Shown here one piece after another: positions 38,136 to 39,511 of a stretch of DNA of 46,593 nucleotides (the stretch's first letter is position 1; every line of letters begins with the position of its first letter). Source of the DNA: an uncultured Thermoanaerobaculum sp. (GTDB lineage: Bacteria; Acidobacteriota; Thermoanaerobaculia; Thermoanaerobaculales; Thermoanaerobaculaceae). The stretch lies in the NCBI GenBank assembly GCA_937934115.1, contig CALHAH010000031.1, positions 1 to 46,593 on the forward strand. Reading direction: 5' to 3'. A program made the position numbers and the translations under genes. Below the pieces are notes generated by a model. That model did no database searches and was not told the origin of the DNA. It was given only the letters and a program-made list of their open reading frames with translations.

Positions 38136-39287
38136 TTAAAGCGTCAGCGCGCGGCGCACCAGCTCGGCGGTGACCGTGAGGCGAAAACCGCCTTCGGGTT
38201 TGGGCATGACGAGCCCTGAGCCAAAGGGGTCAAACTCCACGGGGTTCATGATCTTGCCCCAAATGCCGCGCAGCGCCCGCGCCCCAGTGCGGGTTTGTCT
38301 TTCCGCGTGTTCGGCTATGATAGCCGCCGCCATGTCTTCCACTTCCAGGTCAATGTCAAAAAGTGCCAGATACTTCCGCGTGCGAATAAGCGGTGAATCG
38401 TTGGCATGGAGCAGGATTTCCTTGAGCACATCCACGGTGAGGTCGTTGAGGATCACCACGTTGTCAAAGCGGGCGACGAACTGCGGCACCATACCGTAGG
38501 TAAAAAGATCTTCCAAGCGGAAGAAGTCCGCAAGGGAAAAGCGGGTTTCAATGCGCACCTGACCGTCGGCGGTGCGAATGGCGGTGCTTTTGAGCTTTTC
38601 GCCAGAACCGGGGCTTGTGACACGATAAAACACCTGGTCGTACAGCCCCTCGAAGGCCCCTCCGCAAATGAACATCATGCCCTTGGTGTTGATGTCCAGG
38701 ACCTGGGGTTCTTCCTTGCCGTTTTTCACCACAAAGGCGCGGTATGGGACCACTTCCCCTTCCATGAGCGTCAAAAGCCCCTGCTGCAAAACCACGCCAA
38801 TGGGGTTGGGCTTGCCCGCCACCACTGAGGACATCTTGTCAATTTCGTCCACGCACACCGTGGCCCTCTCCATAAGCTCGGTGAGCTCGGAAGCCTTAGG
38901 TGGGTGGCCAATAACCGCCCGCGCCCGCTGCTCCACCGCTGACAGGAGCCTTTCAGGCCGAAACTCCATGCGGTCGGAGTCCACCAGCAGGTTGGCGTTG
39001 ATGATGGTCATGGCCCGTAAGGGCCTAAAAGCCGGCACCTCGTGGTAGAGGCGCTGGATTTCGTTCATGATGGTGGTTTTGCCGGTGCCGGAGTTGCCTA
39101 TGAGCAGTAAGTTGCCTGGAAGGCTACCGGTGGCGTGCTTGTACACTGCCACTGCCACGAACTCCAAGGCCTTGTCTTGACCCAGCACACCCTGGGAAAG
39201 AGCTGAAAAAATGTGGCGTGGGGTGATGTCCCGAACGCTTTCGGGCCAATAGAGATCGGCGTCGTGCTTCGCAAGCCCGGGCATCAC
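38136..39287 (-). CDS. ClpX-like AAA+ ATPase without zinc domain, GYVG or IGF loops
   Basis: 383 codons. The AAA module follows ClpX: RHIFSALSQGVLGQDKALEFVAVAVYKH (24-51), Walker A GNSGTGKT (64-71), Walker B CVDEIDKM (145-152), LLTLMEGEVV, FICGGAFEGL (207-215), PQFVARFDNV (Arg finger) and sensor-2 TGARALRGI near the end. Three ClpX hallmarks are missing: the N-terminal Cys4 zinc domain, the GYVG pore loop (the region reads NANLLVDSDRMEFRPER), and an IGF tripeptide for docking ClpP. It is therefore probably not the proteolytic ClpX but a related remodelling ATPase of unknown client. It starts within a 4-nt overlap with the coiled-coil gene and is last in the thrS-pheT series. Confidence 0.85.
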   Translation of the reverse strand: MMPGLAKHDADLYWPESVRDITPRHIFSALSQGVLGQDKALEFVAVAVYKHATGSLPGNLLLIGNSGTGKTTIMNEIQRLYHEVPAFRPLRAMTIINANLLVDSDRMEFRPERLLSAVEQRARAVIGHPPKASELTELMERATVCVDEIDKMSSVVAGKPNPIGVVLQQGLLTLMEGEVVPYRAFVVKNGKEEPQVLDINTKGMMFICGGAFEGLYDQVFYRVTSPGSGEKLKSTAIRTADGQVRIETRFSLADFFRLEDLFTYGMVPQFVARFDNVVILNDLTVDVLKEILLHANDSPLIRTRKYLALFDIDLEVEDMAAAIIAEHAERQTRTGARALRGIWGKIMNPVEFDPFGSGLVMPKPEGGFRLTVTAELVRRALTL

Positions 39288-39511
39288 ACCCCCAACGCTT
39301 CCAGCTGCTGCAAGAGCTTGGAAAGTCGCTGGCGAAGCTTTTCCCGCTCTTCCTTGAGCGTGGCCAGCTCATCTTGCAGTTTTTCCTGCGCGGGGGCGCT
39401 TTCTCGCAGCCGCTGGTTTTCCTCCTCCAGCTCCCGCACCCGCTCCTTAAGCTGGGTGTACGCCGCAATGAGGCGGTCAATGCGCTGCTCGAGGATATCC
39501 AGGCTTTCCAT
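39284..39511 (-). CDS. Small coiled-coil protein (ZapB-like)
   Basis: 75 codons, nearly all one continuous coiled coil with heptads rich in Leu, Glu, Arg and Lys (ILEQRIDRLIAAYTQLKERV through LSKLLQQLEALG). ZapB-type division proteins have this size and composition, and a small coiled-coil gene directly after pheT is seen in other bacteria, but low-complexity coils match many things. Gap to pheT is 9 nt, and overlap with the ClpX-like gene is ATGA, suggesting the coil could be a partner of that ATPase. Confidence 0.7.
   Translation of the reverse strand: MESLDILEQRIDRLIAAYTQLKERVRELEEENQRLRESAPAQEKLQDELATLKEEREKLRQRLSKLLQQLEALGV

Follow-up and report, generated by a model that had tools for sequence, protein, structure and literature searches.

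A short ClpX-like AAA+ ATPase encoded in the same genome as canonical ClpXP, with apparently replaced ClpX-specific loops

ClpX is a textbook protein motor, in which an aromatic pore loop pulls on the substrate and the IGF loop docks ClpP. Passages of the structural literature describe IGF loops that bind ClpP, RKH loops that ring the entrance of the channel, and RKH and pore-1 loops (Tyr153, Val154) that engage the substrate (PMC7112952). The substitutions Y153A, V154F and R228A are described in a section of PMC7652416 as raising the KM for ssrA substrates 50-fold or more, and parts of PMC9035409 place the IGF loops in the H sites of ClpP and make the zinc domain part of recognition. The yeast mitochondrial protein Mcx1 has a non-proteolytic role, yeast lacking ClpP, according to a passage of PMC5438985. 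In Actinomycetota, ClpI was recognized by bioinformatics as a class of Clp unfoldases that coexists with canonical Clps; one of its subtypes is presumed to be peptidase-independent, and the passages of that work concerned with its surroundings report no strongly conserved neighbours (PMC10149685).

We analysed a window of 46,593 nucleotides, which is one contig (C31) of a 2.42-Mb assembly in 52 contigs, and compared an ATPase encoded on it with these systems. The protein is like ClpX (TIGR00382 / NF003745) in the fold of the whole AAA+ module and in its Walker A and B motifs, Arg finger and sensor 2. It is unlike ClpX in having no zinc domain and no GYVG, RKH or IGF motif, in its shorter pore-2 segment, in belonging to a separate clade and in not lying beside clpP. 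The likeness to Mcx1 would be that of a ClpX-type ATPase acting without ClpP, although yeast has no ClpP whereas canonical ClpXP coexists with the short form here. ClpI likewise coexists with canonical Clps and was defined bioinformatically, but it is of the ClpB/ClpC type with two AAA+ modules, whereas the short form has a single ClpX-type module. HslU belongs to the same AAA+ group (Z ~26); however, the ATPase scored only 50.4 bits against the NCBIfam HslU cut-off of 362.45, and a separate HslU-type gene (named by inspection) is present on contig C44.

An additional ClpX-type gene in a genome with clpP and clpX

The ATPase gene is the last in the run thrS - rpmI - rplT - pheS - pheT - coiled coil - ATPase, named by inspection of the translations, and faces mfd. 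A sequence-only reading of this DNA had described an ATPase frame and a frame for a 75-residue coiled coil, and both are present (Table 1). The ATGA overlap given for the two genes was in error: the junction reads GTGTGATGCCC, in which the GTG start of the ATPase overlaps the upstream stop codon by 4 nt (GTGA), while an ATG one codon on, equally possible as a start, overlaps it by 1 nt (TGATG; TAATG in genome G001). Within the genus the ATPase gene is under purifying selection, with dN/dS values of 0.10 and 0.12 by the NG86 method, dS being near saturation for the second pair.

Table 1 Features of the ATPase and coiled-coil genes, with positions in the window.
Feature	Residues	Position	Strand	Basis
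ClpX-like AAA+ ATPase (P0001)	383 aa	38136..39287	-	ORF; Pfam AAA_2 above cut-off
Coiled coil, ZapB-like; linked with pheT rather than with the ATPase in particular	75 aa	39284..39511	-	Pfam ZapB
Walker A, GNSGTGKTT	64-72	39072..39098	-	8/9 columns invariant in 36 orthologs
Pore-1 segment NANLLVDSDRMEFRPER, replacing ClpX DATTLTEAGYVGEDVEN	97-113	38949..38999	-	R106 aligned with Tyr153, E108 with Gly155
Walker B, TVCVDEIDKM	143-152	38832..38861	-	ClpX alignment, ortholog columns, motif count
Pore-2 segment, shortened, without SITRDVSG of ClpX	152-166	38790..38834	-	Alignment, motif count
Predicted beta-hairpin at the RKH-loop place	179-200	38688..38753	-	DSSP on AF2 model
Predicted beta-hairpin region at the IGF-loop place (strands 233-238 and 244-249)	225-250	38538..38615	-	DSSP
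Box VII with Arg finger, GMVPQFVAR (R273)	262-276	38460..38504	-	Alignment and motif count
Sensor 2, RTGARALRG	333-341	38265..38291	-	Alignment and motif count

The best NCBIfam models for the ATPase were the two ClpX equivalogs, which it matched with 132.3 bits against a cut-off of 359 and 105.7 bits against 370.75, falling short of ClpX membership by these cut-offs. The canonical ClpX of the same genome, used as a control, reached 655.2 and 641.5 bits. NCBIfam held no dedicated model for the short form, and all 26 members of a mixed short-form alignment matched ClpX models. A phmmer search of PDB sequences also led from the ATPase to ClpX (E 6.9e-28).

The search for a canonical clpX elsewhere in the genome, which the sequence-only reading had proposed, was successful. 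A single canonical clpX with a zinc domain starts at position 117023 of contig C9, directly behind the only clear clpP (C9, 116387-116929), and the one match to the Pfam zinc family PF06689 in the genome lies within it. A second ClpP-family match, on contig C29, proved by inspection to be an NfeD-like membrane protein. Between residues 22 and 352, the short form is 35% identical to the ClpX of its own genome. With clpP and clpX of the canonical kind side by side in the genome, the short form is additional to ClpX and not a substitute for it.

Phylogeny and distribution of the short form

We distinguished orthologs of the ATPase with 60-91% identity (T1), a sister group with 36-40% identity (T2) and further short forms (T3). 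In a tree of 65 rows under LG+C20 (16 of 36 T1, 16 of 22 T2, 9 of 9 T3 and 23 of 28 ClpX proteins, with one HslU), the 41 short forms made up one clade with 100/100 support, outside the 23 ClpX rows. The stem joining this clade to ClpX measured 4.84 changes per column. T1 was supported at 100/100 and T2 at 92/58, and the T3 label did not correspond to one group (L203 fell with T2). HslU, L115 and L118 sit on long branches that leave their own placement unsure and the split between short forms and ClpX untouched. The ATPase is a member of an old, well-conserved sister subfamily of ClpX.

Among 99 genomes, including the one studied here, 39 carried a T1 ortholog (E < 1e-140), 27 a full-length T2 protein, 8 both and 41 neither. 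T1 was found in 30 of 36 relatives from the order, in 27 of 28 at ≥85% completeness and in 23 of 24 at ≥90%. Related subfamilies occur patchily in the rest of the phylum and in the class to which a Desulfovibrio MAG (L117) belongs: a match at E ≤ 1e-60 was found in 21 of 247 genomes sampled from the phylum, 8 of these outside the class of the genome studied here, and in 20 of 199 genomes from the class of L117. A scan of named genomes returned at least two further MAGs, one of Proteobacteria (L118) and one of Acidobacteria (L119), followed by matches of ~30% identity, and the named distribution is to be taken as a lower bound. L119 has a T1 copy in its genome as well, 62.5% identical, which suggests Acidobacteriota as the phylum of the genome studied. 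Our literature search, covering openly licensed papers and the openings of abstracts, found no prior description of the short-form ATPase.

A viral or plasmid origin of the ATPase was considered and rejected, as phage, plasmid and viral data gave only distant matches. Identity to the ATPase was only ~28-33% among the best 20 of 65 phage and the best 20 of 70 plasmid records. Scans of IMG/VR with the ATPase sequence (P0001) or the coiled coil found no relative, and a scan with an alignment (A1) gave only 28-33% identity among the matches listed. The best Foldseek match in BFVD was 21% identical, PADLOC returned only weak P-loop or coiled-coil matches, and the best PHROGs family was phrog_4339, of unknown function.

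Motor motifs kept and ClpX-specific loops replaced

Motif counts in 67 short-form proteins, most of them represented from the start of a tblastn match rather than from the true start, found Walker A, Walker B and the Arg finger in all 67 and sensor 2 in 65. The AAA core, Arg finger and sensor 2 are therefore kept, just as had been read from the letters of this one gene.

The zinc C4 pattern, GYVG and SITRD were each found in 0/67 of the same proteins, and a search over the whole sequences for an IGF, LGF, MGF or VGF triplet was negative in all 67. A separate check of the open frames upstream for the C4 pattern again gave 0/67, one stretch having reached the end of its locus. The letters RKH occurred in a single short form (L017), near sensor 2 and outside the RKH loop. 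As a control, the zinc pattern, GYVG, RKH, an IGF-type triplet and SITRD were all present in 22/22 canonical ClpX rows. The zinc domain, GYVG and IGF, which the sequence-only reading had listed as absent, are thus gone and not shifted to other places in the alignment, and so is the RKH loop motif, but replacement describes the change better than "missing" does.

Twelve of the 17 columns of the pore-1 segment were invariant in the 36 T1 orthologs, a degree of conservation matched by 7 of 313 stretches of 17 residues in the core, pore-1 included. The loop of the ATPase reads DRMEF where ClpX has GYVG. Compared by position with 20 ClpX rows (L096 and L104 left out), Tyr153 corresponded to Arg in 36/36 orthologs, Val154 to Met, Leu or Thr (23, 11 and 2) and Gly155 to Glu in 36/36. 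Being as conserved as the Walker motifs, with Arg and Glu in every ortholog, the loop appears to be in use and not decaying. The zinc domain and IGF are indeed lacking, whereas the substrate-pulling loop, read as missing as well, is present with a different and strictly conserved sequence. A QGYG-type pore loop, two residues shorter, was kept in 12 of the 22 T2 proteins (L060-L070, L073), showing that loss of the aromatic residue is not universal in the clade; the loops of T3 and of the remaining T2 proteins were mostly polar. The shortening of the pore-2 segment, with SITRD lacking in 67/67, is an addition to what had been noted before.

The AF2 monomer, predicted from a 40-row alignment with a mean pLDDT of 92.4 and a pTM of 0.89, showed the full ClpX fold, with hairpins at residues 179-200 and 233-249 by DSSP. 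The segment that replaces the RKH loop was poorly conserved (0/22 columns invariant in the 36 orthologs), and the one that replaces the IGF loop had 4/26 invariant columns. A hairpin at the IGF place was also present in the model of a T2 member (pLDDT 93.4). ClpX chains were the top structural matches in both Foldseek and VIA-align; the best in VIA-align was 6vfx_D (Z 31.7, rmsd 2.9, 314 aligned), as expected of a ClpX fold, and all of the 50 PDB rows listed were ClpX or HslU, one of them named CLPQ-CLPY, with other families possible. Judged from the alignments and predicted models, the ClpX loops are replaced rather than decayed. By fold and motor, the ATPase is in the ClpX superfamily; it is not ClpX by membership, considering that it departs from ClpX in six features (score, zinc domain, GYVG, RKH, IGF and place in the tree).

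Possible mode of action and gene neighbourhoods

The reading that best accounts for these results, to which we assign a probability of about 0.6, is that of an AAA+ ATPase derived from ClpX, in an old subfamily of its own, which would remodel its own clients without ClpP. A separate ATPase with a target of its own and no ClpP docking had been suggested before, and the idea gained support from the loss of IGF in 67/67 proteins, the distinct clade and the canonical clpP-clpX pair on C9. The ATPase would probably form a ClpX-like hexameric ring that binds ATP and hydrolyses it by the usual machinery. Motion of the ring would exert a pull on specific clients or remodel them, with grip provided by the altered pore-1 loop in which the invariant R106 and E108 replace Tyr-Val-Gly. 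Handover of clients to ClpP would not be expected, since the zinc domain and IGF loop are absent and a hairpin, predicted to be ordered, stands at the IGF place. This hairpin might serve as a dock for a different partner or might only seal the lower face of the ring. The variability of the predicted hairpin at the RKH place, which fits no single recognition element, counts against this reading.

More tentatively, the short forms could represent a widespread, unnamed ClpX-derived class that works beside ClpXP in protease-free client remodelling, with a charged Arg/Glu pore-loop grip and a hairpin dock for a new partner. A gene that is near-universal in its order, and that keeps the motor while those loops are replaced beside an intact ClpXP, amounts to a natural experiment on grip, recognition and docking. 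Annotation of such genes as ClpX would mislead, as they fall far under the curated ClpX cut-offs and have no NCBIfam model of their own.

Remodelling need not involve threading. The ring could push or rearrange on a docked partner, with the charged pore loop serving as a contact or structural loop; the change of Tyr153-Val154-Gly155 to Arg-Met/Leu/Thr-Glu in 36/36 orthologs, the shortened pore-2, the loss of RKH and the polar loops of T3 and non-QGYG T2 proteins would all suit such a mode, but retention of QGYG in 12/22 T2 proteins and the otherwise intact ClpX fold lead us to regard it as unlikely. The ClpX ancestry and fold would also be those of an alternative unfoldase for a protease, which might dock ClpP through a non-IGF surface or serve another peptidase such as M29. 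Directly upstream of T1 and on the same strand, 12 of the 15 loci from family f2 (L024, L028-L037, L039) carry a gene for an M29 aminopeptidase (Peptidase_M29, Pfam 158.8 bits in the one example scanned), which makes a link to proteolysis possible. However, the IGF/LGF/MGF motif was found in 0/67 proteins, ClpP already adjoins its own ClpX, and in the f1 loci examined the ATPase had no member of the M29-type cluster next to it; to our knowledge, M29 enzymes are not compartmentalised proteases, and we consider an unfoldase of this kind quite improbable.

The sequence-only reading had joined the ATPase and the coiled coil into a functional pair, perhaps for cell division or translation. In keeping with such a pair, the two genes overlap in the genome studied, the coiled coil matched Pfam ZapB with 40.6 bits against a cut-off of 31.5, and zapA is encoded in the genome, separately, on contig C11; the ZapB call is weak, however, as 132 families matched the coiled coil at E ≤ 1. 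The coiled-coil gene stood behind pheT in 10/10 loci, 7 of them outside the genus (including L083-L089), whereas the ATPase adjoined it in only 3 loci of the genus among the 10 examined. The coiled coil was present in all 16 relatives from the family (E ≤ 2e-5), yet three of these (G003, G013 and G016, genomes 74-91% complete) had no detected T1, and in family f2 the ATPase was present in 17/20 genomes with the coiled coil undetected or weak. A dedicated pair is thus highly improbable. With the adjacency confined to the genus, the operon says little about the function of the ATPase, and the role in division or translation drawn from it was not supported, the ATPase lying beside unrelated genes in other families.

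As a general feature, the pairing of ATPase and coiled coil was accordingly rejected. The placing of a ZapB-like gene directly after pheT, away from zapA, is a fixed arrangement in the family, of which our literature search found no description.

Neighbouring genes in relatives were called with a codon-score script rather than taken from annotation. No neighbour common to all subfamilies and pointing to a client was found in the loci examined. Of 11 f1 loci outside the genus, 6 had T1 ahead of a gene judged by eye to be ankyrin-like. In part of f2, genes for an FHA-type regulator (recognized by eye) and for a protein of unknown family lay downstream of T1. T2 was near ftsY, which encodes the SRP receptor (identified by Pfam SRP54 in one example), in 12/12 f6 loci (L060-L070, L073), and directly adjacent to it in 9. 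These lineage-bound neighbours may matter but do not converge, and the varied neighbourhoods fit a stand-alone motor with lineage-specific use.

Several f6 loci had T2 after genes for a response regulator, a VanZ protein and a ~204-aa protein with a C-terminal hydrophobic segment and no Pfam match. T2 of several other families was divergent to a gene for a ~320-aa exported TPR protein of unknown function in L072, L077, L078 and L079, and by inspection in L074. Among the homologues from the class of L117, the Desulfovibrio MAG, a place beside cvpA-mazG was frequent (L117, L297, L299-L302, L304-L308), in many cases with ribD-type genes alongside too, and other copies lay elsewhere (names by inspection).
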